Shown here piece by piece: positions 1,008 through 23,530 of a DNA stretch of 24,314 bases; position 1 is the stretch's first letter, and each line of letters opens with the position of its first letter. The DNA is taken from positions 1-24,314 of the IMG/VR virus record IMGVR_UViG_3300022200_006824. The stretch is one strand, 5' to 3'. Under the pieces are notes generated by a model. That model was given only the letters and a program-made list of their open reading frames with translations, did not search any database and was not told where the DNA came from. Made by a program: the position numbers and the translations under genes. The stretch is from a virus.

Positions 1008-2501
1008 ATGGAAAATTCAAGTATCAATTTAGCGAACTACGGTCATAGTGCCGGATTCGGAGATGATGCACTTTCACAAGCTCCACAAACTGCGGAAAGC
1101 GTAGCGGAACTTAGTAAAGCCCTTGAAGCTGGTTCAATCACAGGTCGTGAGACTACTGATTTAACTACTGCATCAGGTGCTCCATTGAAAGTGGAGAGTC
1201 TAGAGAAAAATTTAAAGGTGCTGACCTTCTCTGAGTCAGACATCAAAATGTGGAAGAGAATTCCTAAAGCTCCTGCCTTTAACACAGTGGAAGAATACCT
1301 ACAATTGGATTCTTACGGTGCTGAGAGAGGTGGTTTCAACAACGAAGGCGAGTTGCCGGAAGAAGAAGATGCTACTTACATCAGAAAAGCAGAGTTAGTG
1401 AAGTTTATGGGTGTTACTAAGTCAGTAACTCATCCAATGACCTTAGTGAAAAACTACATCGGAAACGCTGTACAACGTGAAGTAACTAATGGTATTCAAT
1501 GGATCCTCCGAAAAGCTGATCGAGCTTTATTTAGAGCTGATGCCAACATCGTTAGCCAGGAATTCAATGGTTTATACACTCAGCATAGAGTGAACGGTAG
1601 CTACGCTACTTTAAATGACTATCAGTTAAATAACGACTTGGTAGTGGATCTTAGAGGTGCACGATTAAAAGAAGAGAATATTGAATCAGCAATGCTTTCA
1701 ATCATTCGAAATTATGGTCATGCAAATCTTTTAATTGGCCCACCATCAGTAGTTTCTAACTTCGTTAAAAACTTCCATGACAAAAAGTTGATTTCCCCAT
1801 CTACAGTTCAAGTAACTGGAGCAACAATGGGTCAAAAAGTAAACAACTTTGCTTCTCAATTTGGAGAAATTGAACTTGATTACGATATATTTGCTGCAAA
1901 AGCTGCACCTAAAAAATTAACAGATTCTGCTGAAGCTAATAAAGCTCCTGCCTCTCCTGTTGCTGGTGTAACTACTACTCCTGTAGGAGCAACTTCACAG
2001 TTTGCTGCTGCTGATGCTGGAGATTACATCTATGCTGTAACTGCTAAGAATAGATTCGGTGAATCTGCTCCTACTCAGTTAGGTGGAGGTGCTGTAACAG
2101 TTGCCGCTGGTGATGTTACCAATCTTATTTTCACTGCAGGTGCTGGAGCTTATTCTCCAACCGGTTATGTAATTTACAGAAGTAAATTAGATGATACTGC
2201 GGCTGGATCTTATGTGTACCCATTATTCGAAATATCTGTTGCTGAGTTAGCTGCAGGTTATGATGGTGGAGCTGCATTATCTGTTAACGATTCCAATCGT
2301 TGGTTACCTGATACAGAAGAAGCATTACTTTTAGAGTCTAACCAAAACATCTACGAATTCAAGCAATTGGCTCCGTTGATGAAAATGCCTCTTGCGCAGT
2401 TAAGTCCTGCTCAAAGGTTCATGGTTTTACTTTATGGTACGCCAATCCTTTATCAACCAAAGAAAATGGTTAGATTTATCAATATTGGTACTGCTGTATA
2501 A
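1008..2501 (+). CDS. Major capsid protein (HK97-fold, SPO1/Twort-like)
   Basis: This 497-residue protein forms the icosahedral shell. It has a variable N-terminal arm (about 1-60), an HK97-type core (about 60-300), an inserted Fn3/Ig-like beta domain at roughly 300-430 (it includes YAVTAKNRFGESAP and GYVIYRSK), and a C-terminal stretch with LAPLMKMPLAQ followed by YQPKKMVRF. From memory, staphylococcal Twort-like capsid proteins have the same layout: an inserted beta domain, then a MMKLPLAQ-like segment and APKKW near the end. That likeness is the main basis for the call. The ATG at 1008 is the only standard start after the in-frame stop at 948-950 and has no SD, only A-rich bases before it. 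Transcription probably stops at the terminator at 2531-2561. The fold assignment rests on family resemblance; no alignment was run. Confidence 0.92.
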   Translation: MENSSINLANYGHSAGFGDDALSQAPQTAESVAELSKALEAGSITGRETTDLTTASGAPLKVESLEKNLKVLTFSESDIKMWKRIPKAPAFNTVEEYLQLDSYGAERGGFNNEGELPEEEDATYIRKAELVKFMGVTKSVTHPMTLVKNYIGNAVQREVTNGIQWILRKADRALFRADANIVSQEFNGLYTQHRVNGSYATLNDYQLNNDLVVDLRGARLKEENIESAMLSIIRNYGHANLLIGPPSVVSNFVKNFHDKKLISPSTVQVTGATMGQKVNNFASQFGEIELDYDIFAAKAAPKKLTDSAEANKAPASPVAGVTTTPVGATSQFAAADAGDYIYAVTAKNRFGESAPTQLGGGAVTVAAGDVTNLIFTAGAGAYSPTGYVIYRSKLDDTAAGSYVYPLFEISVAELAAGYDGGAALSVNDSNRWLPDTEEALLLESNQNIYEFKQLAPLMKMPLAQLSPAQRFMVLLYGTPILYQPKKMVRFINIGTAV

Positions 2502-2530
2502 TAAACAGTTGAACCTGGAAATAATTACTA

Positions 2531-2561
2531 AGAGGCAAGAACAATCTTGCCTCTTTTTTTT
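2531..2561 (+). terminator. Intrinsic terminator after the capsid gene
   Basis: A perfect 10-bp stem (AGAGGCAAGA at 2531-2540 pairing with TCTTGCCTCT at 2545-2554) closes an ACAA tetraloop and runs directly into a T tract. It lies 30 bases after the capsid stop. This is a textbook Rho-independent terminator. It would separate the abundantly needed capsid transcript from the connector genes downstream. Confidence 0.93.
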
Positions 2562-2566
2562 ATGTT

Positions 2567-2591
2567 TATTTTTAACTATATTTACTAAATA
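2567..2591 (+). promoter_or_regulatory. AT-rich promoter-like motif, copy 1
   Basis: A 25-base element reads TATTTTT, then AAC, TATATTTA, C and TAAATA. It matches the element before the sheath gene (6420-6444) at 22 of 25 positions. It contains the palindrome TATTTA-C-TAAATA. It lies just after a terminator and 23 bases before a gene start, where a new promoter would be expected. The core TATATTTA resembles the Bacteroidota -7 consensus TAnnTTTG except at the last base. Promoter function is inference. Confidence 0.5.
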
Positions 2592-2614
2592 TAAAAACAT
2601 AAAATCGTAGTAAA

Positions 2615-3076
2615 ATGAAAATCAGAACAAGTAAGCCAAATAGAAAAAATATTAGCGTCCAATTATTGGACGGAGTAATTGTAGCTTTCAACCAAGAATT
2701 GGTGGGTGAGTTAGAAGACGAATCAAGAATTGAAGAACTTATGTCAAGGGATTTATCCATTTCCTTAGTTGAAGATCATATGGTAGATCGTACTGAAGAG
2801 GAAATTTACGAAAATCCCTTAGTGGAGGGTGAAATTATTGAAGCTGAGGTAAGTGATATTGAAGATGCAGTAGATGTTGACTCCACTACTATGAATCTTG
2901 ATAATGATGAAGATTTGGGATCTATAACTGAAGAGGATGTGGAGGAGTATGATATGGATGACATGACAGTAGCTGAGTTGCAGCAACTCTGTAAAGATGC
3001 CGGTCTTAAAAATAAAGATTGGAAAGATCTTAGAAAACCGGAATTGATTGATTTTGTTAAGAAAAACATAGAATAA
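2615..3076 (+). CDS. Acidic capsid-proximal protein with SAP/Rho-N-like C-terminal domain
   Basis: The protein has 153 residues. The N-terminal part (about 1-55) looks like a small beta-rich domain (RKNISVQLLDGVIVAFN). Residues 60-115 are strongly acidic and probably disordered. The last ~37 residues (MTVAELQQLCKDAGL, then DLRKPELIDFVKK) fit the helix-extended-helix SAP/HeH/Rho-N pattern, a small nucleic-acid-binding fold. A short gene directly after the capsid gene occupies the same slot in SPO1/Twort-like phages. It may be a head decoration, or a protein bridging capsid and DNA. It is the first gene after the post-capsid terminator and the promoter-like motif, and ends 13 bases before the adaptor gene. 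The C-terminal fold is a pattern match by eye; the role is not established. Confidence 0.6.
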   Translation: MKIRTSKPNRKNISVQLLDGVIVAFNQELVGELEDESRIEELMSRDLSISLVEDHMVDRTEEEIYENPLVEGEIIEAEVSDIEDAVDVDSTTMNLDNDEDLGSITEEDVEEYDMDDMTVAELQQLCKDAGLKNKDWKDLRKPELIDFVKKNIE

Positions 3077-3089
3077 TAAATCCAATTAG

Positions 3090-3872
3090 ATGCCCTCACT
3101 TACTCTTAAATGCCCGTATAAGCAAAATGAATTGATAATGTCTCCAACAGAGTTGTTAGAGACATATTTCTATGGTATTAAGATAACTGATAATGATGGT
3201 AAGTCAATGTCTGATCAGATGCTTAAATTTTATATTCAGTCTGCAACACTAGAGGTGGAGCAAGCATTGGATCTTAAAATAATACCACAGATTATCCAAG
3301 AGGATCAGGATTTTTGGTTGCAGGACTATAAGTCGTGGGGGTATGTTAAATTTACATATCCAATTAGGAAGGCTTTTTCATTACAAGGTTTTATAAATGA
3401 TGTAAAGCAAATTTCATATCCAACTGAATGGTTAAGTTCTAGGAAGACAAGTGATGGGAAAATGTATTTCCGTAACTTATATATGGTTCCAACAAATGGG
3501 GCCGCCACAACCAACTCAGTAGTATTTAGTGGGATAACTCCTCACTTAGGTTTCTTTGGTAACAAGATGATCCCTAATTATTGGAATGGGATATATTGCA
3601 CCGGTTTTGATACTGCACCAAAAGATTTGGTTAACTACATTGGGAAGTTGGCGGCTATTAATGTATTTCATATTTTAGGGGATATTATTATAGGAGCAGG
3701 TATAGCTTCACAGAGTATTGGGATTGATAGTTTAAGTCAGTCAATATCTACAACATCATCAGCAACCAATGCCGGTTATGGAGCTAGAATAACAGGATAT
3801 CTTAGAGACTTAAAGCAGTCCTGGCCAATGATGAAGTCATATTACAAAGGATTCACTATGCAATCTTTATAA
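3090..3872 (+). CDS. Head-tail adaptor (connector) protein
   Basis: This 260-residue protein is the first large gene of the connector block. Residues about 40-70 (MSDQMLKFYIQSATLEVEQ) form a helix typical of adaptors that dock under the portal. The central part is rich in aromatic residues. A Ser/Gly-rich segment near residues 205-235 (IGIDSLSQSISTTSSATNAG) resembles a stretch I associate with phage head-tail connector proteins, often just before a final helix (ITGYLRDLKQSW here). Adaptors of the gp6/gp15 type form a ring between portal and stopper. It has no SD and starts 13 bases after the previous stop, so translation is likely coupled within one transcript. The call rests on order and this motif. 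Confidence 0.68.
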   Translation: MPSLTLKCPYKQNELIMSPTELLETYFYGIKITDNDGKSMSDQMLKFYIQSATLEVEQALDLKIIPQIIQEDQDFWLQDYKSWGYVKFTYPIRKAFSLQGFINDVKQISYPTEWLSSRKTSDGKMYFRNLYMVPTNGAATTNSVVFSGITPHLGFFGNKMIPNYWNGIYCTGFDTAPKDLVNYIGKLAAINVFHILGDIIIGAGIASQSIGIDSLSQSISTTSSATNAGYGARITGYLRDLKQSWPMMKSYYKGFTMQSL

Positions 3873-3875
3873 AAT

Positions 3876-4661
3876 ATGGCAGATGAAAAAGCGATAACCA
3901 AACAAGTACCACCAAGCTTAATACAGAAGCCAGAGGTAAATATGGTCAAGTCGGACTTCGATGCCCTGATTCAACAAAAAGGGTACGATGTTTATCATGA
4001 TCATGCAGTAAAGTGTCCATGTTCAAGTAAGGATGGGGCAGCCCCGCAACCAACTTGTCAGAATTGTGGAGGATCCGGATGGTTCTATGTAAATAGAATA
4101 AAGACTAGGATGGTGTTTCAGTCAATGAATGTTAATACTAAGTTGAAGGAGTGGTCACAGGAAAGACTTGGGACAGTAAATATAACAGCTAGATCTGAGG
4201 ATAGAATATCCTTTATGGATAGACTTACACTAATAGATAGTGAATCTGAGCATAGCCAGGTTGTATTTTTAAAGAAGCAGCCGGACACAACAAAGCTGTA
4301 TGGTACCTTGAGGTATAATCCAATTGAGTTCTATAGTGTATTTTTGTATAAGGGGGTATCTCAGAAACATCAGCTATTAATAGAGGGAGTAGATTTTACT
4401 GTAGATAGAAATCAGATTAAGTTATTACTTATAGATGATGGGGATATGGCAAACCCTACAATTTCTATTAGATATAAGCACCAAGCAGAATATACAGTAT
4501 TGGACCTTCCTAGAGATGTAATGGTAGCTACTATAAAGGATGAGTGTACAAGGAAAAATAAAGATGTTCAGTTCCCTATATCGGCAGTAGGAAGAAGAAG
4601 TCACTATATGATTGATAGAAATAACTACAATAACGATAATTTACTAGATAATAGTTTTTAA
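3876..4661 (+). CDS. Neck/connector protein with Cys4 zinc-ribbon-like knuckle
   Basis: The protein has 261 residues. It carries C47-x-C49 and C61-x2-C64 with a following GGSGW turn, which looks like a small zinc-binding knuckle of the DnaJ/zinc-ribbon kind (CxxCGGSG). The rest is beta-rich with segments such as RLTLIDSESEHSQVVFL and DFTVDRNQIKLLLIDDGD, suggesting a beta-barrel or sandwich. The gene lies between the adaptor and a gp10-like neck protein, where contractile-tailed phages encode the stopper or a neck protein. It begins 3 bases after the adaptor stop and ends one base before the next ATG. Zinc binding is inferred from Cys spacing. Head-closure function is inferred from order. Confidence 0.55.
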   Translation: MADEKAITKQVPPSLIQKPEVNMVKSDFDALIQQKGYDVYHDHAVKCPCSSKDGAAPQPTCQNCGGSGWFYVNRIKTRMVFQSMNVNTKLKEWSQERLGTVNITARSEDRISFMDRLTLIDSESEHSQVVFLKKQPDTTKLYGTLRYNPIEFYSVFLYKGVSQKHQLLIEGVDFTVDRNQIKLLLIDDGDMANPTISIRYKHQAEYTVLDLPRDVMVATIKDECTRKNKDVQFPISAVGRRSHYMIDRNNYNNDNLLDNSF

Positions 4662-4662
4662 C

Positions 4663-5436
4663 ATGTTTCCACCAATTCAAATAGATACTCGGGCATTAAG
4701 CCAAGAATTTGATCTCACAAAGGATGACATTGATCATTTGAAGGAGGCAGTGGTAAAGACTGTGACCAAAGTTGTTCATACTGAATGGAGGAACCAGGCC
4801 AAAAGAGGGCTGACTAATTCCAGGAGTCAGTACATGAATAGTATTATAGCTAGTGAAGTAGGTAGGTTTACAAATGTCCTTACCTTAGTGGGTACTGTAC
4901 CTAATATGATCGAGCAGGGAGCAAGCTCCTTCGATATGAAAAAAGGATTTGAGAATAGTAGCAAGAAGATTATAACCAGGGGAGCAGATGGAACATTGGG
5001 GTGGTACTTAACAATACCATTTTCTTGGGCACAACCCGGAGCATTGGGGGAGAGTTCTAAATTTACTGGGGTACTTCCAAATGATGTATTTAAGATTCTC
5101 AAGGGAAAGCAGAAGGCAAATCCGGATGCTAAGTTAAATTTATCCGATATTCCGGATGAATATAAGATCCCTAAAATGACTTCTAAATTAAATTTACTTG
5201 ATGATCAACTCATCCCAGAGTACAAGAGTATATATGAGGGGGTGCATCAAGTAGGGGGTGCAGGAAAAGGGGGACCGATAATGTCCTTTAGAAGAGTTTC
5301 CAAAAAAAGTTTGGAAGAATCTTGGATCCATCCTGGGATTAAAGCTAGAAATTTTGCTGAGAAAGCTTGGGATGCAGCAGAAGTACCAACTGTAGTGGGA
5401 GATGTAATTGACAACTTCCTAGACCAAATAATGTAA
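4663..5436 (+). CDS. Neck / tail-completion protein, HK97 gp10-like
   Basis: This 257-residue protein begins with a long helix (about 15-50) containing basic residues and a WRNQAKRGL motif. The C-terminal part has a SWIHPGIKARNFAEKAW segment (about 221-237), which resembles the short (H/K)PGxKAxxF motif near the end of HK97 gp10-family neck proteins. These proteins sit at the head-tail interface beside the stopper and tail terminator. The middle contains a poly-basic loop and a Pro-rich segment without an evident motif. It is packed one base after the upstream stop and 3 bases before the next start, consistent with one operon of connector proteins. Assignment is by motif and position. Confidence 0.58.
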   Translation: MFPPIQIDTRALSQEFDLTKDDIDHLKEAVVKTVTKVVHTEWRNQAKRGLTNSRSQYMNSIIASEVGRFTNVLTLVGTVPNMIEQGASSFDMKKGFENSSKKIITRGADGTLGWYLTIPFSWAQPGALGESSKFTGVLPNDVFKILKGKQKANPDAKLNLSDIPDEYKIPKMTSKLNLLDDQLIPEYKSIYEGVHQVGGAGKGGPIMSFRRVSKKSLEESWIHPGIKARNFAEKAWDAAEVPTVVGDVIDNFLDQIM

Positions 5437-5439
5437 GAT

Positions 5440-6183
5440 ATGATACCTGATATTCATTTACATGAAATAGTTAAGTCCTGCTTAAAAGCTATAAGAGCTG
5501 ATTATGCAGCAAATAGTGGAGTACCATCTACTACTATACTGTGGTATTTACTGAATGAAACAAAACAAGCAGACACAGGGAAATTCCAATGGTATGAAGA
5601 AGCAGTAGAAATATTTATAAATAGAAATGTAGATCACCCAAAATATCTAGATAGTAGACTATTCTTTGATAGAGAGAGGGCTAAGATTCCGACTATCCAT
5701 GTTATGATGGCAGGGGAAGATAAAGGAGCAGATGGAATTGGTATCGATCAAGGATATATTCCTGAACAAGTAATAGGTACTACACAGAGGCCTGTACTGA
5801 ATAGACAATTTTCAATGAATGCAAACATTATCGTAACTTCTAACAATAGTTTTGAGACGGTAATTATCTATCATGTAATAAAATCTATGTTGATTTCATT
5901 ATATGAACATATACAATTATTTGGATTTATTAATCCAATAATTAGTGGTAGAGATATTCAATTGAGTCAAGAAGTAGCTCCTGCAGGTATATATGCAAGG
6001 TCAATTAACTTTCATGCTTCATACGAACTAAATGTACCCGAAGTTATCTTGAATACAATTGGTAGTCTTGTATATCTTCAGATGAGTAAAATTAATGACC
6101 AAACAGTTACTCCCGTTATAGGTCCTGGACCGATAAGTGGGGATACAATAATTGATACTGAGGAAAACCCAATAGGGGGATAA
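5440..6183 (+). CDS. Putative tail terminator protein
   Basis: This 247-residue protein is the last large connector gene before the sheath, the usual place for the tail terminator, which caps tube and sheath and provides the head-binding surface. It starts with a helix (HLHEIVKSCLKAIRADY), has a central beta segment (QFSMNANIIVTSNNSFETVIIYHVIKSM) in which a strand leads into a long helix, and later strands (INFHASYELNV). This alternation agrees with the alpha/beta fold of gpU/gp15-type terminators. The last ~40 residues are Pro/Gly/Thr-rich and probably flexible. It has no SD. Confidence rests mostly on gene order. Confidence 0.55.
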   Translation: MIPDIHLHEIVKSCLKAIRADYAANSGVPSTTILWYLLNETKQADTGKFQWYEEAVEIFINRNVDHPKYLDSRLFFDRERAKIPTIHVMMAGEDKGADGIGIDQGYIPEQVIGTTQRPVLNRQFSMNANIIVTSNNSFETVIIYHVIKSMLISLYEHIQLFGFINPIISGRDIQLSQEVAPAGIYARSINFHASYELNVPEVILNTIGSLVYLQMSKINDQTVTPVIGPGPISGDTIIDTEENPIGG

Positions 6184-6200
6184 TATAAAAACAAGGAATT

Positions 6201-6419
6201 ATGGCAAAAAAGAAAATTAGGGAGATCAAAGAAGTAAGGTCTTCATCCCCTAGTAACGAAAAAATGACTAAAGAGCTTACATATACAGCGGATGCTTATT
6301 GTAATATTATTGGTGCACAGGATGGTATTAGATATGTTGCAAACCTTAAATTTAGGGGTGCGGACAAAAAAACCATCAAAGAATGGAAAGAAAGCTTCAA
6401 AAAAGAGGCATTAATCTAG
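6201..6419 (+). CDS. Small conserved-position protein before the sheath gene
   Basis: The 72-residue protein has a basic N-terminus (MAKKKIREIKEV), a central segment with one Cys (ADAYCNIIGA) and a Lys-rich C-terminal helix (KKTIKEWKESFKKEAL). AAGGA lies 5 bases before its ATG, one of the few weak SD-like matches in the window. A protein of about 70 residues directly before the sheath gene is also found, as I recall, in Twort-like phages. It may be a minor sheath- or neck-associated factor. I recognise no domain. The lysine runs suggest contact with an acidic partner or nucleic acid. Confidence 0.7.
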   Translation: MAKKKIREIKEVRSSSPSNEKMTKELTYTADAYCNIIGAQDGIRYVANLKFRGADKKTIKEWKESFKKEALI

Positions 6420-6444
6420 TATTTTTCATTATATTTAGTAAATA
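6420..6444 (+). promoter_or_regulatory. AT-rich promoter-like motif, copy 2 (before the sheath gene)
   Basis: This element reads TATTTTT, CAT, TATATTTA, G and TAAATA. It matches 2567-2591 at 22 of 25 positions and contains the palindrome TATTTA-G-TAAATA. It fills most of the 38-base gap between the 72-residue gene and the sheath gene, ending 13 bases before the sheath ATG. A promoter here would boost sheath and tube, the most abundant tail proteins. It could alternatively be a translation-enhancing AT-rich leader. Confidence 0.5.
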
Positions 6445-6457
6445 ATTTCAAAAAGAT

Positions 6458-8104
6458 ATGGCAACGAATTTCACATTCAACAATAAAGTTATAGAGTTAC
6501 CGGGCTCTTACTCGCAGTTTATATCAGGAGTTACCAACCCTGCTTTATCATTATCTTATGGTAATGTACTGCTAATAGACACAGGTTCAGGAGCAGGCTA
6601 TGGAGCCGGATCCGGAATTGTAGGAGATATATCCAGCGGAGCTGATTCAATATATGAAGCAGGGACATTAGCAGAATTTAGAAAGGCTATTGGTGGTGGT
6701 ATCCTTTGGGATATAGCACAGTCACTTTTTCAGCCAAATGGAGCAGGAGGAGGAAACGGTATTTCTAAATTATTTTATGCTAGAGCAGCTACCACAGCAG
6801 CAGCAACTGTAACATTAAATTACACTGCAGGAACTAATGGAGGAACAGCAGTTATTCAAGCTAAAAATGAAGGTCTCGTAGGTAATGGAGTAGAAACTTC
6901 TTCAGTTCTTACACAAGGGTACGCAGTAACTTTAGGAGCTGGAGTAGATGATATTACTAAGTATATAGTTAAGTTTTGGAGAGGGACATTTAAAGGTAAT
7001 GATCCAAATGGATATCCTTGGGATGAGGTGGGGGCAGCTGACACGCTTCCTGAACTTGTAGTATCTTCTCCCGAATTTACAAATATTGCAGAACTACATA
7101 CATGGATGGAAACCGATGCAAGATTTGGTTCATCCTTTAAACTAAGTTCTAAGACAGTTGTTCTTACAGGTGCAATGGATCCAGCGGATATCGTTGCTAA
7201 TGCAGGAAATACATTATTTGCTGCTGGTACTGAGACATATGATACAGCTAGAGTAGATGAAATATTGGCTCAGGTGCAAAACTTAGATTACTCATTAGTA
7301 TTAGCAGATGGATACGGAGCAGGTGCTCAATCTGTTGATAATGGGAAAATCCTTGCTCACATAGCTGATGGTGATACATTTGGGGATAAAATAATGGTAG
7401 TTGGAGGTGGAGTGGATGTAAATTCATTTGCCCTAGGAACTACTAACTCATCTATTGATACGGCAGTTTATTATGACAATGATCGAGTGGTTGTTTGTCA
7501 TGGAGGTCCTATTAAAAATTCTACGCTTACAGCGGATGGATATGTTCCTAGAACATCACTTCATAAAGCAGCTGTGGTATGTGGAAGATTGGCCGGATTA
7601 GAGCCACAAATTCCTATTACCTTCAAGAAAATTAAAATAGATGGAGAGATCCATAAGTTGTCATTGAAAGAACAGAAACAAGGACTTAAGTATGGTGTAC
7701 TTATGTCTCATTCAGATGGGCAATCATTTAGTGTAATACAGGGTGTGAATTCAATTCAAAACAATTCATCTTTAGTTAATCCAAACGGAACTACTCATTC
7801 AATTCAATTGAGACGTATGGTGGCTCAAGTGAATAGAGAACTTGTAGTAAATGCTACACAGCAATTACTTAAGAATCCTGATGGAACAAACAGAAATACA
7901 TTAAGTGCTTCTGATATTAAAACATTCACAGAAGGATATTTAAAAGGGAAGACGGCAACAACTACAGCAGATAATTTGATTATCTCCTTTAGAAATGTTA
8001 ATGTTACCATAGATAATGATGCCTACAAAGTTACTTACGATGTAATTTTCAATACAGAAATTACTAAGTTGTTCTTCACAGGTACCATTTTCTTAAACTT
8101 TTAA
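6458..8104 (+). CDS. Tail sheath protein
   Basis: This 548-residue protein forms the contractile sheath around the tube. The N-terminal region carries the beta/Gly-rich start typical of sheaths (ELPGSYSQFISGV, then Gly/Ala/Ser-rich loops), a variable middle domain, and a conserved C-terminal half. That half includes YVPRTSLHKAAVVCGRLAGLEP, a helix (RMVAQVNRELVVNATQQLL), and final strands (ITKLFFTGTIFLNF) that form the intersubunit mesh in known sheaths. Its length is close to SPO1/Twort-type sheaths. It is followed 42 bases later by the tube gene and preceded by a promoter-like motif, which fits high expression. The first ATG follows AAAAAGAT with no SD. Confidence 0.93.
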   Translation: MATNFTFNNKVIELPGSYSQFISGVTNPALSLSYGNVLLIDTGSGAGYGAGSGIVGDISSGADSIYEAGTLAEFRKAIGGGILWDIAQSLFQPNGAGGGNGISKLFYARAATTAAATVTLNYTAGTNGGTAVIQAKNEGLVGNGVETSSVLTQGYAVTLGAGVDDITKYIVKFWRGTFKGNDPNGYPWDEVGAADTLPELVVSSPEFTNIAELHTWMETDARFGSSFKLSSKTVVLTGAMDPADIVANAGNTLFAAGTETYDTARVDEILAQVQNLDYSLVLADGYGAGAQSVDNGKILAHIADGDTFGDKIMVVGGGVDVNSFALGTTNSSIDTAVYYDNDRVVVCHGGPIKNSTLTADGYVPRTSLHKAAVVCGRLAGLEPQIPITFKKIKIDGEIHKLSLKEQKQGLKYGVLMSHSDGQSFSVIQGVNSIQNNSSLVNPNGTTHSIQLRRMVAQVNRELVVNATQQLLKNPDGTNRNTLSASDIKTFTEGYLKGKTATTTADNLIISFRNVNVTIDNDAYKVTYDVIFNTEITKLFFTGTIFLNF

Positions 8105-8146: not shown

Positions 8147-8650
8147 ATGGCTCAAGTATTAACAGGCGCATTAGCTATAATCAAACTAAATGGTAAGCCA
8201 ATTGGTAAGATGCGTAACATCCGAGTTACTGAGAATATTAATAGAGGGAGAGTATCAGGAATTGGCGAGTTAACTCCACAAGAGTTACCTGCAACCCAAT
8301 GGAATGGTACTGTATCTTGCTCATTCTATTCAATTCAGTATGTTTCTGATGGAGTAGCGGGAATCGATGGATCTCCTGATTTAGGTATCACAAGAACAGC
8401 AACTTCAGTAGCACAGTGGGTAGAGCATGTACTCTTGCAGGAAGAGGGTGTAAGTCTTGATATCTTTAAGAAAATTCAGGATGCAATAGATCCAGTAACC
8501 GGGCTATTGTTAAATAATACTCCTGAGCCATTTGCAAGAATTGAAGGTATGTTCCTTGACAGAGATGGATTTGATATTACTGAGAATGGAATCTCGGGAA
8601 GAGATCAGGACTTTACTTATAAAAATCCAATCATAATTATTCCGTCTTAA
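8147..8650 (+). CDS. Tail tube protein
   Basis: This 167-residue protein builds the inner tail tube. It shows the beta-barrel pattern of tube proteins: an N-terminal GALAIIKLNGKPIGKMRNIRVTE hairpin, a central NGTVSCSFYSIQ strand, a helix (ATSVAQWVEHVLLQE), and a C-terminal strand pair ending in DQDFTYKNPIIIIP. Size and position directly after the sheath gene agree with gp19-like tubes. The 42-base AT-rich spacer before it has no SD and shares GTAAATAATT with the motif before the sheath. A terminator follows 33 bases after the stop, so sheath and tube may form their own strongly expressed transcript. Confidence 0.9.
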   Translation: MAQVLTGALAIIKLNGKPIGKMRNIRVTENINRGRVSGIGELTPQELPATQWNGTVSCSFYSIQYVSDGVAGIDGSPDLGITRTATSVAQWVEHVLLQEEGVSLDIFKKIQDAIDPVTGLLLNNTPEPFARIEGMFLDRDGFDITENGISGRDQDFTYKNPIIIIPS

Positions 8651-8683: not shown

Positions 8684-8710
8684 AAAGGCGGCATAACTGC
8701 CGTCTTTTTT
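8684..8710 (+). terminator. Intrinsic terminator between tube and chaperone genes
   Basis: A 10-bp stem (8684-8693 with 8698-8707, one G-U pair at 8688:8703) closes a TAAC loop and merges into a run of six T. It lies between the tube, needed in many copies, and the tail-assembly chaperones, needed in few. Complete or partial termination here would set that ratio. No copy of the 25-base motif is seen in the 24 bases between it and the next start, so downstream genes may depend on read-through. Confidence 0.88.
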
Positions 8711-14356: not shown

Positions 14357-17300
14357 ATGGCCTGTAAGTCACAATTAGAAAAGAATTTTGTAGAATTTCT
14401 CTTAAGTTTACAAGATGTTGAAAATCTATCAGATGAAGCCTTAATTGCTATCCAGAGTTATTCTGGAGGGTTTGTAAATTGGACAATAGAATCTGTCACA
14501 CAGATTATCACAATTATTAATGAAGCGGCAGCAAATGAAGCTGTAGAATTAGTACATACAGGAGACGTTATTGGGAGTACTAATCTTACTTTAGAGAGCA
14601 TAGCTATTACACGTAGAGATCTTGAGACTATCCAAGGAGAAGATTATATTCTTATTGCAGATGCAAGTGATGGTTATGAACTGAAGAAAGTACTAGCTTC
14701 TGATTTGTTAGTAGAACTTCCTCCTCCTGTTGCAGTAGTAGTTCCCGGAGGTATAGAGCAGAGTATTCAAGTACATGGACCTGATGGAACCTTTGCTGGG
14801 TATAATGATTACTTGTGGGATAATGTAACCAAGAAATTACAGGTATCTGGATTTGCATTAAGATCTGTAGATAATAGGATAGAAATATATGATGACTCAA
14901 CTAATCACTATGCAACACTTATTGGTAGTGGATCTGTAGTAGAAAAGGCATTAGATTTTATAGACCCCGTAAGATTTGACATATTAGTTAAGGATACTGT
15001 ACCAAGTACTAAAGCAACCTTTACTTTACAGCCTGATAAATCAGATGCTCTTAGCTATATATCTGCTAATGATAGATTGATTAGGTTTAGGACTACTACT
15101 AGTGATCTTAAGATAGAACTATTCCCTGTAGTAACTCTAAATACGGTTCCTGTAGGAGATGCTACAATGGAAGCATTAGTATGGGATCCAGTATCATTTG
15201 AAATAAAGAAATGGACTATAGCATCAGGTGGTGGAGCACTTGACACTCTTACTGTAAATAATAGTACATTTATTAATTTAGTTGATGGAGGTACAATCAC
15301 AGACCCAAGTATTACAGCGAGCTTATCAGCAACGGGAACTCCTGATTCTACAAAATATTTAAGAGGAGATAACACATGGGCATCTTTACCACCTGCAGGA
15401 GCTGAGATTAATGATCTAACTTCAGCTGTAACTTGGGCAAATGTACCGGATGCAAATATTACACAGACGAGTGTAGTCCAACATCAAGCAGCATTAACTA
15501 TTACAGAATCACAAATTAGTGATCTAAATCACTTCTCCCCTAGTACATTATTAGCAGACTATGGCTTTACAGATAATAGTACTAATTGGAATACTGCTTT
15601 CGGATGGGGAAACCATGCTGGACTATACTTACCTGTAGCAACTCAATTACCGATTACAAAGGCACTAGTAGCAGGGGAATATTTTACTTCCTATGACTCT
15701 ATAACTGGACTATTCACAAGTGCTACACCTCCTGATACAATATATACTCACCCTACCTATACTGCATTTAGTATTGACACAGCAGGTGCTGAGGTAATAG
15801 ATTTACTAGTTACTAATACTATTGGTAGTGTAACCAATGTAACTAAAAGGACGATGACTTTGTCCGATTTAGGTTATACTGGAGACACTAATGCAAATGA
15901 ATATATTCACCCTACAGGGGATGGCAATTTACATGTTCCTGCAAACAGTACAACAAATAATGGTAATGTACTAACAGCTACAGCAGTGGCAGGAGTATAT
16001 ACATGGCAAACTCCAGCTACTGTTATAACAGATCATACACTATTAACAAATATTGGTACTAATACCCATGTTCAAATAGATTCTCATATAGGAGATGCGA
16101 CTATCCATTTTGTAGAAAATCCAAATTGGAATACAGCTTACTCTTGGGGAGATCATGCTGGACTATATGACTTATATGGGTCATGGAATCTTAAGACAAA
16201 TAATATACAGAGAACTACTGTAATAAGTGGTGGAAACCTAGACTTAGTTGAAGGTGCAAATGTAACAATAAGTTACAGTGCTGGTGGAGTAGTTACAATA
16301 GCTTCAGCAGATACAGTCTATACACACCCTGCTTACACAGCAAGAAGTATTGATACGTCTGGAGCTGAGGTACTAGATATTTTTACTTCTGATACAATAG
16401 GTTCTGTTACAAGTATTACTAAAAGGACGATGACCTTAGCTGATTTAGGCTATACCGGGGATACTAATGCAAATGAATATGTACATCCGACCGGAGACGG
16501 TAACCTGCATGTGCCTGCTAACAGCACTACGAATAATGGTAAAGTCTTAACAGCTTCAGCAATAGCTGGAGTGTATACATGGCAGACACCTGATGTAGTG
16601 ATCACAGATCATACAGGTTTAACAAGTATAGGTATAAATACTCATGCACAGATAGACACTCACATAGGTGATACATCTATTCACTTTACTGAGAATCCAA
16701 ATTGGAATACAGCCTTTAGTTGGGGTGATCATGATGGTCTTTATTTACCTATTGCAACACAACTTCCAATTACAAAAGCTCTAGTAGCCGGAGAATTTTT
16801 TACTTCATATAATTCTGTCACAGGATTATTTACAAGTGCTACTCCAGTGGATACCAATAACTATGTAACGGGACTATCATTTGCAACAGGGACAGGGATT
16901 TTAACTGCCACAAGAAGTGGATTAACAGACCTAACTGTTGATTTAGATGGAAGATACCTAGAATCAGAATCAAATTCATTTGGAACATTTTCATCAGTAA
17001 CAGATGTAGGGTTTACATGGGGTTCAGCAGATGTGGTAGCAGACAATGCATCTGACACGTTAAAATTGGTTGGTGGTACAGATATAATCATCGAGACAGA
17101 TTCTGCAGGAGATGCAATAAGAATTAGATACTCCGGGTCAGCAGGAGCGAGTACATTTCTTAATTTATCAGATACACCTTCTACTTATGTTGGACAAGCA
17201 TTAAAAGGAGTAAGAGTAAATGCTGCAGCCAATGCTTTAGAATTCTATACAACTACAGATGCTAACGATAATGACTTCTTAGATGGAGCTACTTTTAATA

Positions 17301-20300
17301 CAGGGACAGGAGTAATAACATTTAGTGTTAGTTTACAGCCTGATGTAACAGTAGATATTGATGGTAGATTCTCCTTATTAGGACATACACATGTAGTTGG
17401 TGATATTACAGATTTAACTGCTACGGCAGGTGAATTAAACATACTAGATCTATCTGCTACAGCATTGACTGCCGGATGGGGATATTTTGCAGACGGGATA
17501 TCTACAGCATCATGGAGAAAATTATTGGGATCTGAGATTACGAATGATTCTGGATGGACAGATAATCTAGGGATTGTAGAAAGTTTGACTACAACAGGAA
17601 CTAGTGGAGCCGCAACATTATCATTAGGGGTTCTTAATATCCCTAACTATGCCAATGATAACTTCTATGTAACAGGATTATCATTTGCTATCGGTACAGG
17701 TATACTAACTGCAACAGTATTAGGAGCTTCTAACCCTACTGTAGATTTAGATGGAAGATATAGCTTATTAGGTCATACACATCTAGAGGCAGATATCACA
17801 GATCTACAGGCATATTTACTCGATATCACTGCAGAACCACTAAGTGATTTATTAGATGTAACTATTACTACAATAACAACAAATGAGATTCTTAAATGGA
17901 ATGGGACAATATGGGTTAATAATACCCTAGCAGAAGCAGGGATATCAGCAGTAGGCCATACCCACTTAATAGGAGACATCACCGACTTTACAGATAATTC
18001 AACAAATTGGAATACGGCATTTGGTTGGGGAGATCATTCATTAGTAGGATATCTAACAGCAGAAGTACCATATACAGCAACTTCACCAATAGTAGTTACA
18101 GGTCAAGTTATAAGTCATCTAGATACTGATGGGAATAGACATGTCCCTGCAAATAGCACTACAAATAATGGTAAAGTCTTAACAGCAGGAGCTACAGCAG
18201 GACTATATACATGGGAAACTATACCTGCTGGAGTTACAGATCACACGTTACTAACAAATATTGGTACAAATACACACGTACAAATTGATACTCACCTAGG
18301 ACTAGTTAATGAACATATTGATTGGACAGTTGATCAAGGAGCAACAAATATTCATGTAGGTAATTACATAGATACTGTATATACTCATCCAAATCACTCA
18401 GGAGATGCAACGTCTGTAGCAGATGGAGCAATTACACTAGCAACAGTGAATGCAAATGTTGGTTCATTTACCAATGCTAATATCACAGTAAATGCTAAGG
18501 GTTTAATAACTGCAGCATCCAATGGTACTGATAATAATGAGAATTTCTACCTAACTGGACTAAGTTTTGGAACAGGTACAGGTATCTTAACGGCTACTGT
18601 ATTAGGTGCAACAAATCCAACAGTAGATCTAGATGGTAGATATGAATTAATAGGCACTAATGATAATTATGGAAGTTGGAACCTAAGAGATGGAGATATT
18701 ACTATTGTTACGATCGGTTCCGGAGAACAAATAAATTTAATTGAAGGAGCAAATATAGATATCAATTGGACTGATACTGTTGGACCTATTTATGGACTTA
18801 CAATAACGGCAACAGATACAGTATATACACATCCAACCTATACAGCTAGAAATATAGATACATCAGGGGCACAGGTACTAGATATCTTCACATCAGATAC
18901 GATAGGAGCTGTTACAAATATCACTACAAGAACAATGACCTTAGCAGATCTAGGGTATACAGGATCGCCTACAGCAAATAACTATGTCCATCCTACTTAT
19001 ACAGCTAGGAATATTGACACTAGTGGTGCACAAGTATTAGATATTTTTACGTCAGATACAATAGGGGCAGTTACAAACATTACAACTAGGACAATGACCC
19101 TAGCTGACTTAGGATATACTGGATCGCCTACAGCTGATAACTATAATAATTGGAAACTAAGGGATGGAGATACTACTGTTGTAACCTTATTATCAGGGCA
19201 ACAGGTAAATTTAGTTGAAGGTGCAAACATAGATATTAATTGGACAGATACAGTAGGGCCTACATATGAGCTAACAATAACAGCAACAGATACAGTATAT
19301 ACACATCCAACTTTTACGGCATTCTCTATTGATACAGTAGGAGCTGAAGTTATAGATCTTCTAACCACTAATACTATTGGTTCAGTAACTAATGCTACCA
19401 AGAGAACGATGACCCTAGCAGATTTAGGGTACACAGGAGCTACAAATGCTAATTTCTATGTACACCCAAATCATAGTGGACAAGTAACTTCAGTTGCAGA
19501 TGGAGCCACAGCATTACATGTTTCATCAATTACTGCACAGACTGAGTTAATTACTGGACTAGTAGGGACAGATGAATTACTAGTATCAGATGCAGGGGTA
19601 CTAAAGAGAATGGACGTAAGTGTAATGAACGCTTACTTTAATGCCAATCTAGGTTTTGTAACTTCTGTAACAGGGTCAGGTTCAGCTAGTGGAATAACAT
19701 TAACACAATCAGGTACAGCAACAGCCCCGATATTAACATTAGGGGGTTCTGCTTCAATAAATAATTCAAATTGGTCTGGAACAGATTTATCTGTTTTAAA
19801 TGGTGGTACGGGAGCTTCTACATTAACAGGTGTATTGATAGGGAATGGGACATCTCCTGTAACAGCAATTACTGGGACACCACTACAGATGTTAAGAAGA
19901 AATGCTGGTGGTACTGCATATGAATTCTTTACTCCTAACTATGGGGATGTATTCAAAGTAGGTACTCCTGTAAATAACCAAGTAGGGGTTTGGACAGGAG
20001 ATGGTACAATAGAGGGAGATGTCGGACTAGTATATGATTCGATAACACAGTTTCTAACACTTGGAAATGGAACTCTATCATCGTATTTTGTTATGGATTC
20101 ATCAGCAAATAACCATATACAATTTAAGGTTGCTGGTGTTGATGCTGTATCTATAACTGGATCTGCTACTTCACTTAATCTAATTGGGGCAGGAAATTCA
20201 TTAAGCATTGGTACTGCTAATAATCAATTTAAGAAAGCAGTAACTTCTGTTGACTCTAATACAGGATTCTACTTAGGAGTAACAGGTTCGGCAACCAATC

Positions 20301-22756
20301 CACAATACTCAACAAAAGGATCTTCTGCAGGGTATGGCATAGATCAAATAACAGGAGAAATGGCATGGGTTAATGGTTCTTTAAGAGCCATAACTTCAAC
20401 TGTTACAGGAGCTAGAAATAATTTAGAATTACTTGGGACAACAACATCCGGTTCATTTGGAGGAACAGTAGCAGGAGTAGGAGTTATTAGAATAAATGAA
20501 GTAACAACAGCCCCAACAGGGACTGTAGTAGGTGGTGGATTATTATATGTCACAGGGAATGATTTAAGATACTTAGATGCTGCAGGTACGAATAGTTCTT
20601 TATTAGGAGGAGTAGATAACAACTTTTACTTAACAGGCTTATCATTTAATACCACTAATGGTATACTAACAGCTACAGTATTGGGAGCAGCAAACCCAAC
20701 AGTTGATCTAGATGGCAGATATTCATTAATACAAACTTATGATTATAGTGCCCTGGCATTGACAGGAGCAGTTGTGTTTGATGATATAAATGTTCTTAAT
20801 GGATTTGTAGATAGTGTAACCACAAGAACCTTAACTTTAGCAGACTTAGGGTATACAGGCTCAGTTACAGCGAATGACTATACACACCCTAATCATTCCG
20901 GGCAAGTTACATCAACAGGTGATGGTGCAACAGTAGTTACAGTTTCAGCGATCACAGCGCAAACAGCTCTAACTACCGGATTAGTTGGAACAGATGAGAT
21001 ATTAATATCAGATGGTGGAGTAATTAAGAGAATGGATGTAAGTGTATTCAATGCTTATTTCAATGCTAACTTAGCTTTCACTAACAATACTGGAACAATA
21101 ACTGAAGTTATAGCTGGAAATGGGTTAACAGGAGGAGGAACTTCGGGAGTAGTAACTGTAGATATAGTTGGTGGACTTGGAATTGACTTAGGTGTAAATA
21201 ATATTCAACTAGACTATAGTACAACAAGTAATAGTGTTATAGCTGCTGCAACTGATGGAACAGCTGTAACATTTATAGATACTGACTTAATTCTAATTAG
21301 GGATGCAACCAATAGTATTGTTTATAAAGCTGCAATTAATCAATTGCCATTTAATGACTATATTCACCCTAACCATAGTGGACATGTATCATCAGTAGCA
21401 GATGGAACAACTACATTACTAGTAGCCTCGATCACAGGACAAACTGCTCTAACTAGTGGGTTAATCGGAACAGATGAACTTCTGATAAATGATGGAGGTG
21501 TAATTAAAAGGATGGATGTAAGTGTAATGAACGCTTACTTCAATGCTAATTTATCATTCAATAACTACGTACACCCAAATCATAGTGGGGATGTTGTATC
21601 CACAGGAGATGGCATAACAACAATACAGCCAGGAGCAGTAGACATAGCAATGCTAAGTGCAATAGGAACACCTTCTGCTACTACTTTCCTTAGAGGAGAT
21701 AATACGTGGGCAGTCCCATCAGCACCTGCTCATACACTTGATTCACACTCAAATGTTACTATAACAACTAATACAAGTGGTGAATTATTAAAATGGAATG
21801 GTACAGCTTGGATTAATAACACCTTAGCTGAGGCAGGTATATCAGCAACAGGACACACTCATGCTATACTAACGGCAGGTACAGGTATTACTAGTTTAAC
21901 ATATAATGGTTCAACAGCTAGAACATTTAATGTAGTTGCTACAGTGGGAGGACTAGGGAATGCTGCAGGTGGATTGACTGTTCTTGCTGATAGTATACAT
22001 ATAGACTACGAACAGACACCTACCAATAATGTAGTAATGTCTGCAGCAGTACTGAATTCGCCAATTAGTGGAGACTATATATTATATCATGATTCAAGTG
22101 GGGGAAGAGTTGTTAGAGCAGATATATCAACATTACCTTATGTAAGTAATGTAACTGCAACTTCTCCAATAGTTTCATCAGGAGGATCTACTCCTAATAT
22201 TACACATTTAAGTACAGCAGGGAATAAACATATACCAAGTGGTGGTGATGCTACTAATAACCTTCTAAGATGGTCAGGTGTTTCGGGAACAGCAGTATGG
22301 GGTCAAGCGTCATTTAGTGAATTAGATAACGATTCAGCAGTTCTTACAGCAGGAGTTGGATTATCTTCTGCTGGAACCTTTAATGGCTCTACTAATAGGA
22401 CATTTACTTTAGACTTAGCCAATGCTAATGCTTGGACTGCTCAACAATGGTTTGAAGCTGGAACTATAAGTAGTGGTGCAGGTACAGTAACTTGGAATTG
22501 TTCTACGCAACAAACAAGAATAGTAAGTGTTACAGGAAATTGTACCATTGCAGCAGCAACAAATCAGCAACCAGGCGCAACATATATTATAATACTAAAA
22601 CAAACTGGTAGTTTTACAGTAGCTTGGAATAGTAACTATCAATTTCCTGGTGGTGTAGATCCAACAATGACAACAGGAGCAGGTAGGGTAGACATTATAA
22701 CTTGTGTATCTGATGGTACACTTATGTATGCCGTAGCTACTCAAAACTTCGCATAA
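14357..22756 (+). CDS. Giant modular tail fibre / receptor-binding protein (2,799 residues)
   Basis: It fills about a third of the window and starts directly after the spike stop. Residues 1-320 form an N-terminal attachment region with a helical start. From about 320 to 1860 and 2090 to 2560 the protein is made of interleaved repeat families: A (VTNITTRTMTLADLGYTG), B (GNLHVPANSTTNNGKVL with THAQIDTHI and WNTAFGWGDH), C (GLSFGTGTGILTATVLG), D (HPNHSGQVTSVADG with LKRMDVSVMNAYFNANL), E (LVEGANIDINWTDTVGP) and F (LKWNGTIWVNNTLAEAG). Residues about 1860-2090 are a non-repeated module (NQVGVWTGDGTIEGDVG). The last ~110 residues (AWTAQQWFEAG to YAVATQNFA, with GATYIIILKQTGSFTVAWNS) match a C-terminal beta domain common in phage fibres. 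Four GHTH motifs suggest metal sites. The fibre should trimerise and bind the host surface; the receptor is unknown. Confidence 0.85.
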   Translation: MACKSQLEKNFVEFLLSLQDVENLSDEALIAIQSYSGGFVNWTIESVTQIITIINEAAANEAVELVHTGDVIGSTNLTLESIAITRRDLETIQGEDYILIADASDGYELKKVLASDLLVELPPPVAVVVPGGIEQSIQVHGPDGTFAGYNDYLWDNVTKKLQVSGFALRSVDNRIEIYDDSTNHYATLIGSGSVVEKALDFIDPVRFDILVKDTVPSTKATFTLQPDKSDALSYISANDRLIRFRTTTSDLKIELFPVVTLNTVPVGDATMEALVWDPVSFEIKKWTIASGGGALDTLTVNNSTFINLVDGGTITDPSITASLSATGTPDSTKYLRGDNTWASLPPAGAEINDLTSAVTWANVPDANITQTSVVQHQAALTITESQISDLNHFSPSTLLADYGFTDNSTNWNTAFGWGNHAGLYLPVATQLPITKALVAGEYFTSYDSITGLFTSATPPDTIYTHPTYTAFSIDTAGAEVIDLLVTNTIGSVTNVTKRTMTLSDLGYTGDTNANEYIHPTGDGNLHVPANSTTNNGNVLTATAVAGVYTWQTPATVITDHTLLTNIGTNTHVQIDSHIGDATIHFVENPNWNTAYSWGDHAGLYDLYGSWNLKTNNIQRTTVISGGNLDLVEGANVTISYSAGGVVTIASADTVYTHPAYTARSIDTSGAEVLDIFTSDTIGSVTSITKRTMTLADLGYTGDTNANEYVHPTGDGNLHVPANSTTNNGKVLTASAIAGVYTWQTPDVVITDHTGLTSIGINTHAQIDTHIGDTSIHFTENPNWNTAFSWGDHDGLYLPIATQLPITKALVAGEFFTSYNSVTGLFTSATPVDTNNYVTGLSFATGTGILTATRSGLTDLTVDLDGRYLESESNSFGTFSSVTDVGFTWGSADVVADNASDTLKLVGGTDIIIETDSAGDAIRIRYSGSAGASTFLNLSDTPSTYVGQALKGVRVNAAANALEFYTTTDANDNDFLDGATFNTGTGVITFSVSLQPDVTVDIDGRFSLLGHTHVVGDITDLTATAGELNILDLSATALTAGWGYFADGISTASWRKLLGSEITNDSGWTDNLGIVESLTTTGTSGAATLSLGVLNIPNYANDNFYVTGLSFAIGTGILTATVLGASNPTVDLDGRYSLLGHTHLEADITDLQAYLLDITAEPLSDLLDVTITTITTNEILKWNGTIWVNNTLAEAGISAVGHTHLIGDITDFTDNSTNWNTAFGWGDHSLVGYLTAEVPYTATSPIVVTGQVISHLDTDGNRHVPANSTTNNGKVLTAGATAGLYTWETIPAGVTDHTLLTNIGTNTHVQIDTHLGLVNEHIDWTVDQGATNIHVGNYIDTVYTHPNHSGDATSVADGAITLATVNANVGSFTNANITVNAKGLITAASNGTDNNENFYLTGLSFGTGTGILTATVLGATNPTVDLDGRYELIGTNDNYGSWNLRDGDITIVTIGSGEQINLIEGANIDINWTDTVGPIYGLTITATDTVYTHPTYTARNIDTSGAQVLDIFTSDTIGAVTNITTRTMTLADLGYTGSPTANNYVHPTYTARNIDTSGAQVLDIFTSDTIGAVTNITTRTMTLADLGYTGSPTADNYNNWKLRDGDTTVVTLLSGQQVNLVEGANIDINWTDTVGPTYELTITATDTVYTHPTFTAFSIDTVGAEVIDLLTTNTIGSVTNATKRTMTLADLGYTGATNANFYVHPNHSGQVTSVADGATALHVSSITAQTELITGLVGTDELLVSDAGVLKRMDVSVMNAYFNANLGFVTSVTGSGSASGITLTQSGTATAPILTLGGSASINNSNWSGTDLSVLNGGTGASTLTGVLIGNGTSPVTAITGTPLQMLRRNAGGTAYEFFTPNYGDVFKVGTPVNNQVGVWTGDGTIEGDVGLVYDSITQFLTLGNGTLSSYFVMDSSANNHIQFKVAGVDAVSITGSATSLNLIGAGNSLSIGTANNQFKKAVTSVDSNTGFYLGVTGSATNPQYSTKGSSAGYGIDQITGEMAWVNGSLRAITSTVTGARNNLELLGTTTSGSFGGTVAGVGVIRINEVTTAPTGTVVGGGLLYVTGNDLRYLDAAGTNSSLLGGVDNNFYLTGLSFNTTNGILTATVLGAANPTVDLDGRYSLIQTYDYSALALTGAVVFDDINVLNGFVDSVTTRTLTLADLGYTGSVTANDYTHPNHSGQVTSTGDGATVVTVSAITAQTALTTGLVGTDEILISDGGVIKRMDVSVFNAYFNANLAFTNNTGTITEVIAGNGLTGGGTSGVVTVDIVGGLGIDLGVNNIQLDYSTTSNSVIAAATDGTAVTFIDTDLILIRDATNSIVYKAAINQLPFNDYIHPNHSGHVSSVADGTTTLLVASITGQTALTSGLIGTDELLINDGGVIKRMDVSVMNAYFNANLSFNNYVHPNHSGDVVSTGDGITTIQPGAVDIAMLSAIGTPSATTFLRGDNTWAVPSAPAHTLDSHSNVTITTNTSGELLKWNGTAWINNTLAEAGISATGHTHAILTAGTGITSLTYNGSTARTFNVVATVGGLGNAAGGLTVLADSIHIDYEQTPTNNVVMSAAVLNSPISGDYILYHDSSGGRVVRADISTLPYVSNVTATSPIVSSGGSTPNITHLSTAGNKHIPSGGDATNNLLRWSGVSGTAVWGQASFSELDNDSAVLTAGVGLSSAGTFNGSTNRTFTLDLANANAWTAQQWFEAGTISSGAGTVTWNCSTQQTRIVSVTGNCTIAAATNQQPGATYIIILKQTGSFTVAWNSNYQFPGGVDPTMTTGAGRVDIITCVSDGTLMYAVATQNFA
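15908..18310 (+). repeat. Fibre repeat family B (three copies)
   Basis: Copies begin at about 15908, 16484 and 18128. Each has NLHVPANSTTNNGKVL (or NRHVPANS), a YTWQTP/YTWET segment, then ITDHTLLTNIGTNTHVQID. The first two continue into a WNTAFSWGDHAGLY motif. Copies 1 and 2 follow an A repeat at the same spacing, so A+B formed a larger unit of 576 bases (15749 to 16325) before divergence. Confidence 0.85.
18662..19300 (+). repeat. Fibre repeat family E (two close copies; a third weaker one near 16172)
   Basis: Copies at about 18662 and 19138 share WxLRDGD, (L/I)(I/V)EGANIDINWTDTVGP and LTITATDTVYTHPT. A more divergent copy near 16172 has WNLKTNN and LVEGANVTISY. Each is directly followed by a family A unit, so E+A is a recurring pair. 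Confidence 0.8.
18830..19147 (+). repeat. Tandem duplicate of repeat A with scrambled synonymous codons
   Basis: Two adjacent 53-codon units (18830-18988 and 18989-19147) encode the same residues over the first 49 positions. By hand comparison, 28 of those 49 codons differ synonymously, including AGT versus TCA for serine and TTA versus CTA for leucine. Units this similar in protein but this different in DNA cannot be a recent duplication. Confidence 0.9.
19463..21553 (+). repeat. Fibre repeat family D (three full copies, 63 residues)
   Basis: Full copies lie at 19463-19651, 20885-21073 and 21365-21553, the last two with a 480-base period. The pattern is HPNHSGQVTSVADG, then TAQTELITGLVGTDELL, then LKRMDVSVMNAYFNANL. 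Shorter fragments with only the HPNHSGD start occur near 18389 and 21570. The conserved NAYFNANL end may be a helix or trimer contact. Confidence 0.87.
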
Positions 22757-23432: not shown

Positions 23433-23445
23433 TTATATATAATTA
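23430..23445. repeat. 16-bp perfect AT palindrome
   Basis: TAATTATATATAATTA is fully self-complementary. It overlaps the last three bases of the LamG gene (stop TAA at 23430-23432) and extends into the gap. It could be a protein-binding site or chance in AT-only sequence; no T tract or GC stem makes it a terminator. Confidence 0.4.
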
Positions 23446-23464
23446 TAAATAGATTTTTATTTGT

Positions 23465-23508
23465 GGTATAAAAATTATATATTTATGGGATAAAAACTAT
23501 ATATTTAG
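23465..23508 (+). repeat. Tandem 22-bp direct repeat in the gap before the 105-residue gene
   Basis: Two units (23465-23486 and 23487-23508) match at 19 of 22 positions: GG(T/G)ATAAAAA, (T/C), then TATATATTTA. Each contains TATATTTA, the core of the element before the sheath gene. They lie 23 bases before the next ATG. A doubled promoter or operator is possible; function is inference. The rest of the 98-base gap is AT-rich with nothing else I can support. Confidence 0.55.
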
Positions 23509-23530
23509 TTAAAAAATATAAGATAGAAAA

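Follow-up and report, generated by a model that had tools for sequence, protein, structure and literature searches.

How does a phage whose genes all run in one direction start transcription at its virion genes? The question is raised by IMG/VR record IMGVR_UViG_3300022200_006824, which was analyzed whole (24,314 bases, called the window here) and in which all 19 genes found by a simple open reading frame caller point rightward. Two of its intergenic regions, one following the gene for the major capsid protein and one preceding that for the tail sheath, share a 25-base AT-rich motif, which an earlier, sequence-only reading took for a late promoter or the site of a phage regulator. The answer favored here, with a probability of roughly three in four, is that both copies are promoters laid out like those of the Bacteroidota primary sigma factor and reading into virion genes.

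The window is, judged from its genes, that of a tailed phage (myophage group). The capsid protein shares 47% identity with its counterpart in Bacteroides phage DAC16 and 41% with the one in Chryseobacterium phage MA9V-3, and the sheath protein matches both of these phages and six other records (eight in total). Because the capsid and sheath are related to those of DAC16 and MA9V-3, the host is taken to be a member of the Bacteroidota.

The two copies (Table 1) agree at exactly 22 of 25 positions, 2567-2591 against 6420-6444. As the sequence-only reading had described, each contains the palindrome TATTTA-S-TAAATA and stands directly before a gene start; these starts are 2615 for a protein of 153 amino acids (aa) and 6458 for the 548-aa sheath. 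How unusual are they? When the window was searched with the combined pattern, the only mismatch-free matches were these two; with up to three mismatches there were four, against a shuffle mean of 0.01, the other two being reverse-strand reads that overlap the same places. The six upstream regions of the window with a gap of at least 25 nucleotides (nt), 482 bases altogether, hold two exact occurrences of TTTTNNNTATATTTA, compared with a shuffle mean of 0.005, and none of 400 dinucleotide shuffles reached two. These chance tests in the window are not independent, as the pattern was taken from the two copies themselves; the tests in relatives, described below, are.

Which parts of the motif would do the work? 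In Flavobacterium johnsoniae, one study places the box TAHHTTTG at -12 to -5, with transcription starting 4 to 5 nt after it (PMC6847099). On that scale, both copies carry TATATTT in the -7 box and an AT-rich -18 tract (TTTTT at -20 to -16), and both have A rather than G at -5. A TTTG at -33 was not found: the profile of 31 clade sites shows no column of this kind. The sequence-only reading had likened the core to the TAnnTTTG -7 element, and its TA..TTT layout bears out the likeness, while the A in place of G at -5 does not. The parts proposed to do the work are the box TATATTTA, at -12 to -5, and, 3 nt upstream of it, the T-tract at -20 to -16, with no -33 element. By the published spacing, transcription probably begins near 2589 at copy 1, giving a leader of about 26 nt, and near 6442 at copy 2, giving one of about 16 nt. 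Copy 1, directly downstream of a terminator-like hairpin, would restart transcription just after the capsid terminator and serve the block from 2615, and copy 2 would add transcripts that begin immediately upstream of the sheath gene. The hairpin scan gave only one plus-strand candidate between 2555 and 8684, of six pairs and inside a gene (3528-3546). Both copies are presumed to be active, to be read by host RNA polymerase, alone or with a phage protein, and to act late.

Does the element recur in related phages? Relatives were collected by a capsid search and by a three-row sheath alignment, the latter giving 45 loci; used as single queries, the sheath protein and the protein encoded at 3090-3872 found no relatives in viral_contigs. 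Three phages can be compared by position: the window with L007, a record that reaches further left and is 99.94% identical to it over 1,748 overlapping bases; G003 with G001, joined by a 123-base identical overlap; and G004 with G002, which share a 2,068-base alignment at 99.4%. What recurs at syntenic places in these three, exact or altered, is narrower than the motif first described, namely, TTTT-N3-TATATTTA. It stands before the gene that follows the head-morphogenesis gene (exact in L007 and G003, with a broken T-tract in G004), after the capsid gene (exact in the window and G003, degenerate in G004 as TACATTAG), before the sheath gene (exact in the window and in G001, G002, and G006, at L077, L081, and L035, respectively), and before the baseplate J gene, identified by phrog_6 and PF04865 (exact in G002, with a broken T-tract in G001). 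The L007 copy of the promoter core, at 1278-1292 before a 178-aa head-block gene, continues as AAAGTCAG and lacks the palindrome arm.

Is the element tied to gene starts? The sequence-only reading had held that an equal rate inside genes would speak against it. In five contigs from close relatives, the window being excluded, TTTTTNNNTATATTTA with at most one mismatch has 12 matches, of which 8 are intergenic and before a start (two of these overlap at one place) and 4 are coding. The densities are 0.498 per kb of intergenic DNA and 0.017 per kb of coding DNA, and the reversed pattern gives 0 in both. Likewise, the 60 upstream regions of relatives other than the window hold 8 matches at up to one mismatch, compared with a shuffle mean of 0.37, and 0 of 400 shuffles reach 8. 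Exact TTTTNNNTATATTTA occurs 11 times in seven contigs, every time in the sense orientation, and the nine intergenic copies lie 5 to 59 nt before a start. The two copies inside genes (L007 3998-4012 and G003 4910-4924) were rejected as promoters, as codons for a conserved EIFNYIY segment of an orthologous gene explain them.

Across IMG/VR, the core at 12 to 42 nt before ATGGCAAC has 59 matches, several being near-identical copies of one another; 53 lead into an open frame of at least 60 aa, 41 of them with an in-frame stop before the ATG as well. The reversed pattern has 16 matches, 4 with such a frame and 4 with an in-frame stop. The form with G at -5 has at least 120 matches, and among 80 of these, 70 have the open frame and 58 the stop. 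Two of the 59 precede sheath relatives, both in records already compared here; for the remaining 57, a comparison with 12 window proteins gave no match. Since matches occur outside the known relatives, the element is not peculiar to the window's clade. The A form is a clade preference inside a general promoter type, G being commoner in IMG/VR.

A further approach was a matrix derived from eight sites, found in the window, G001, G003, and G006, and applied to other records. Its top site is the one before the sheath gene in G002 (score of 19.8, compared with 14.9 for the best match to the reversed matrix) and the one before a 131-aa head-block gene in G004 (13.6; reversed, 11.1). Best and reversed scores were 20.1 and 14.6 in G012, 16.1 and 13.4 in G010, and 16.9 and 11.1 in G014, and in all five records the best match is intergenic and before a start. 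Motif discovery returned varied boxes in G012, G014, and G015 (TATCTTTA and TATTTTTA) and nothing box-like in G007, G010, and G013; on the pooled close set, it was dominated by the early-block elements of G004. Altogether, syntenic copies, sense orientation, nearness to starts, the upstream hairpin, and the published Bacteroidota layout support the promoter that the sequence-only reading proposed.

Several results weigh against this interpretation. The matrix did not single out an intergenic site in G007 (best, 13.5; reversed, 13.9) or G013 (16.6; reversed, 11.5), where the best matches are inside genes and where none of the nine matches listed lies close before a start, except one in G013 that is inside a gene. 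In G002, the baseplate J site ranked third at 14.4 and does not exceed the reversed best, and six of the nine matches listed are inside genes or face away from them. G004 with G002 is the weakest case: the exact core is absent from G004, where the post-capsid site is degenerate, and the T-tract is broken at its head-block site as well as at the baseplate J site of G001. The A at -5 departs from a host G that is nearly invariant. For the looser box TAHHTTT[AG], its reversed form, and its antisense, the counts are 18, 10, and 8 among 35 distinct sheath upstream regions and 7, 6, and 4 among 22 for baseplate J. Set against their controls, these counts mean that the positions are not generally conserved beyond the close clade, and no box of this type was found before the sheath genes of DAC16 or MA9V-3. 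Finally, carrying the motif was the criterion by which the sites were selected, and the box identity among them is 1.00 by construction.

Could the same element be a late promoter of the phage's own, recognized only when RNA polymerase is equipped with a phage sigma factor or cofactor, as in SPO1-like and Twort-like phages, with the A at -5 discriminating? This is possible, if doubtful; being a special case of the promoter reading, its odds overlap with those given above. In its favor, the window clade has A at X in 9 and G in 1 of the sites of form TTTTNNNTATATTTX before starts (other relatives, 4 and 0), and the window capsid is related, more distantly, to those of SPO1-like phages. The late promoters of Kayvirus look similar, and the authors describing them conclude that they rely on a phage sigma factor (PMC7698491). 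G004 also has a different element, TTAAACAAANTTGTTTANCTTAG, before its early-block genes. Against it, a search for the SPO1-type late sigma factor phrog_1025 at E up to 1 gave no match in 15 records (the window, its relatives, DAC16, and MA9V-3), several of which are fragments, while SPO1 itself was recovered at 2.6e-51. Above-threshold matches to the sigma families PF04542, PF08281, phrog_351, and phrog_1740 are confined to DAC16, G015, G019, and the SPO1 control; one stretch of G012, at an E value of 0.026, is below the PF08281 cutoff. A diverged factor could escape these models. The motif also precedes a DnaB-like helicase gene in G012, and the G form is the commoner one in IMG/VR (at least 120 versus 59 matches). 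No multisubunit polymerase was found in the 14 records searched. A conserved 159-aa protein encoded beside polymerase genes was modeled as a possible factor (mean pLDDT, 78) and gave no PDB match at an E value of ≤0.001, only weak Tudor/KOW-like ones.

What, then, of lateness? While the promoter half of the proposed late promoter holds up, "late" is plausible from gene content, which is the source of the labels "early" and "late" used here. Most copies in the close clade have a virion or head-block gene downstream (a head-block gene, the post-capsid gene, sheath, or baseplate J), and the two best sites of G010 precede head-protease-like and baseplate-wedge-like genes. Speaking against strict lateness are the site before the helicase gene, which is the best-scoring one in G012, and a weaker one in G002 before a gene with a UvsY-like match. 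A bolder speculation, with the odds well against it, is that the clade moved its promoters to the A form TTTT-N3-TATATTTA, which the host holoenzyme alone would read poorly and a phage protein would activate, with some baseplate transcripts being leaderless.

The early block of G004 has its own pattern. L082 of this phage carries, between 2575 and 9521, eleven sense copies of TTAAACAAANTTGTTTANCTTAG (at most four mismatches) upstream of small early-block genes. The element is a palindrome overlapping a TATCTTAG-type box and looks like a repeated early promoter with an operator. Two further matches lie in G002, at 25654-25676 and within the part shared with G004.

Could the palindrome be what matters in the window, as an operator through which a dimeric phage regulator controls both blocks? 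Both window copies do have perfect arms, and among 13 sites listed the right arm is complete (6/6) in these two and in the sheath copy of G002 and nearly so (5/6) at G004 14098. In the other nine sites, it matches at one to three of six positions, and the copy at L007 1278-1292 continues without it. The same emerges from 11 box-aligned sites chosen for carrying the box, a set that excludes the degenerate G004 post-capsid site. For pairs of sites at the same position (n = 11) and at different positions (n = 44), identity is 0.82 and 0.79, respectively, in the T-tract, 0.44 and 0.23 at -44 to -33, and 0.33 and 0.34 at -4 to +12; composition alone predicts 0.34. Since the sites were picked for carrying the motif, the contrast that counts is the one with the right arm, which is missing from most of the related copies listed. 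The regulator site suggested by the sequence-only reading is thus very unlikely.

An element acting at the RNA level, such as a translation enhancer or processing site in the leader, is highly improbable. The exact intergenic copies, at 5 to 59 nt before starts, would suit one, but the range of distances is wide, the box is only 5 to 6 nt before baseplate J starts, copy 1 sits directly after a terminator-like hairpin, and the window contains no match to an Rfam family at the gathering score. Coincidence is barely credible: intergenic DNA is AT-rich and look-alikes are common (the short core alone, TATATTTASTAAATA, is a weaker signal, with 18 matches at up to three mismatches, 8.3 expected, and 1 of 100 shuffles as high), but the shuffles, reversed patterns, strand bias, and syntenic recurrence strongly disfavor it.

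If the element is a promoter, how close to a gene can it be? The baseplate J proteins of G001, G002, and G012 are all 399 aa long, align from residue 1, and are 50 to 64% identical, and the distance from the end of a TTTA-type box to the ATG is 6, 5, and 5 nt, respectively. The published spacing suggests that these transcripts would start at the ATG or no more than two bases from it. This leaderless reading is kept as a lead only, because most other J orthologs have no such box. Leaderless mRNAs are reported to be uncommon in the Bacteroidota (5.5% in F. psychrophilum), and about 3.7% of leaders in Bacteroides thetaiotaomicron are under 10 nt. A general peak of leaderless spacing was considered and rejected. 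Box-to-start-codon distances number 1 at 0 to 3 nt and 20 at 4 to 6 nt, compared with 7 and 2 for the reversed pattern and 7 and 18 for the antisense control, which also rises at 4 to 6 nt; the distribution is only suggestive.

Table 1. Coordinates of the candidate promoters, neighboring features, and genes (window positions unless another record is named)
Feature	Position	Strand	Remarks
Candidate promoter copy 1, TATTTTTAACTATATTTACTAAATA	2567..2591	+	T-tract 2569-2573; -7-type box TATATTTA 2577-2584
Candidate promoter copy 2, TATTTTTCATTATATTTAGTAAATA	6420..6444	+	T-tract 6422-6426; box TATATTTA 6430-6437
Intrinsic-terminator-like hairpin, 11 pairs then T run	2530..2555	+	After capsid gene, directly upstream of copy 1; consensus match only
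Intrinsic-terminator-like hairpin, 10 pairs	8684..8707	+	After gene next to sheath; consensus match only
Possible weaker promoter region	23478..23530	+	Box TATATTTA occurs twice, 45 and 23 nt upstream of the 105-aa gene at 23531
Major capsid protein gene	1008..2501	+	phrog_752
153-aa gene after capsid, putatively served by copy 1	2615..3076	+	Weak SAP-domain match, below Pfam cutoff
Tail sheath gene, 548 aa, putatively served by copy 2	6458..8104	+	Name from the sequence-only reading
167-aa gene downstream of sheath	8147..8650	+	phrog_3776, function not annotated in PHROG match
Baseplate J gene, promoter-like box 5-6 nt before conserved start	L080:16045-17244	-	
Baseplate J gene, promoter-like box 5-6 nt before conserved start	L077:1706-2905	-	
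Baseplate J gene, promoter-like box 5-6 nt before conserved start	L088:10583-11782	+	

Regarding the neighboring genes, the window sheath protein has no PHROG or Pfam match and otherwise matches only genes that are unannotated or annotated "hypothetical protein"; from its position, the 167-aa gene downstream probably encodes the tail tube. In the possible weaker promoter region, the T-tract is replaced by an A-run. The gap that contains it (23433-23530) is AT-rich with two similar TATATTTA-bearing repeats, and the 105-aa gene downstream has no PHROG or Pfam match. Elsewhere, 14357-22756 is a gene of 2,799 aa with many internal repeats, mostly 60 to 80% identical, for which a tail fiber function is a guess. 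In L005, a 660-aa head-morphogenesis gene (222-2204) seems, by eye, to have an intein-like insert relative to its 313-aa relative in L006.

How does the element compare with known systems? In open-licence PMC text, no published promoter consensus was found for this group of Bacteroidota myophages. The nearest model is the promoter of the Bacteroidota primary sigma factor (sigma-ABfr or sigma-A), given as TTTG at -33 and TAnnTTTG at -7 (PMC7366714, PMC6847099, and PMC9723704). In F. johnsoniae, AT-rich motifs are described at -18 and -28, the -33 element is much less evident, and the G at -5 is nearly invariant (PMC6847099). The window copies share the TA..TTT core, the AT-rich -18 tract, and a weak or missing -33 element, the box-to-start spacing being assumed to be the same; they differ in the clade's preference for A over G at -5.

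DAC16, with homologous capsid and sheath genes, also has T-rich columns upstream of a TA..TTT box. In L026 and L028-L030, which are from DAC16, TAHHTTTG precedes genes at 34 sites, and T-rich columns lie at -17 to -15, -30 to -28, and -41 to -38, about one helical turn apart. These DAC16 sites end in TTTG, whereas those of the window end in TTTA: in DAC16, TAHHTTTG occurs 34 times in sense and 4 in antisense, compared with 36 and 39 for the TTTA form, and the strict A form is absent before starts. The idea that the motif itself is common to DAC16 was rejected, counts at one mismatch being 16 forward and 46 reverse, compared with 19 and 37 for the reversed control.

A more distant parallel comes from Kayvirus, a Twort-like, distantly related myophage group. 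Its late promoters are described as lacking a -35 element, carrying the long -10 box TGTTATATTA, and lying mainly in the virion-gene region (PMC7698491). A lone, long -10-type element with TTATATT before morphogenesis genes is the shared feature, TTATATT being present in the sheath copy and CTATATT in copy 1. The letters downstream of TATATT differ, and Kayvirus is held to use a phage sigma factor (PMC7698491), whereas none was found here. Because the host consensus fails at -5 and -33 and no phage sigma factor was found, the copies are filed outside the phage-sigma class, under a layout of a known general kind, the Bacteroidota-type phage promoter. Their value would be that of a useful annotation, not a new kind of element: a consensus for delimiting transcription units in little-studied Bacteroidota myophages, with starts predicted near the two positions given above, and, in the preference for A at -5, a simple way into the question of whether the host polymerase is redirected by phages of this kind.

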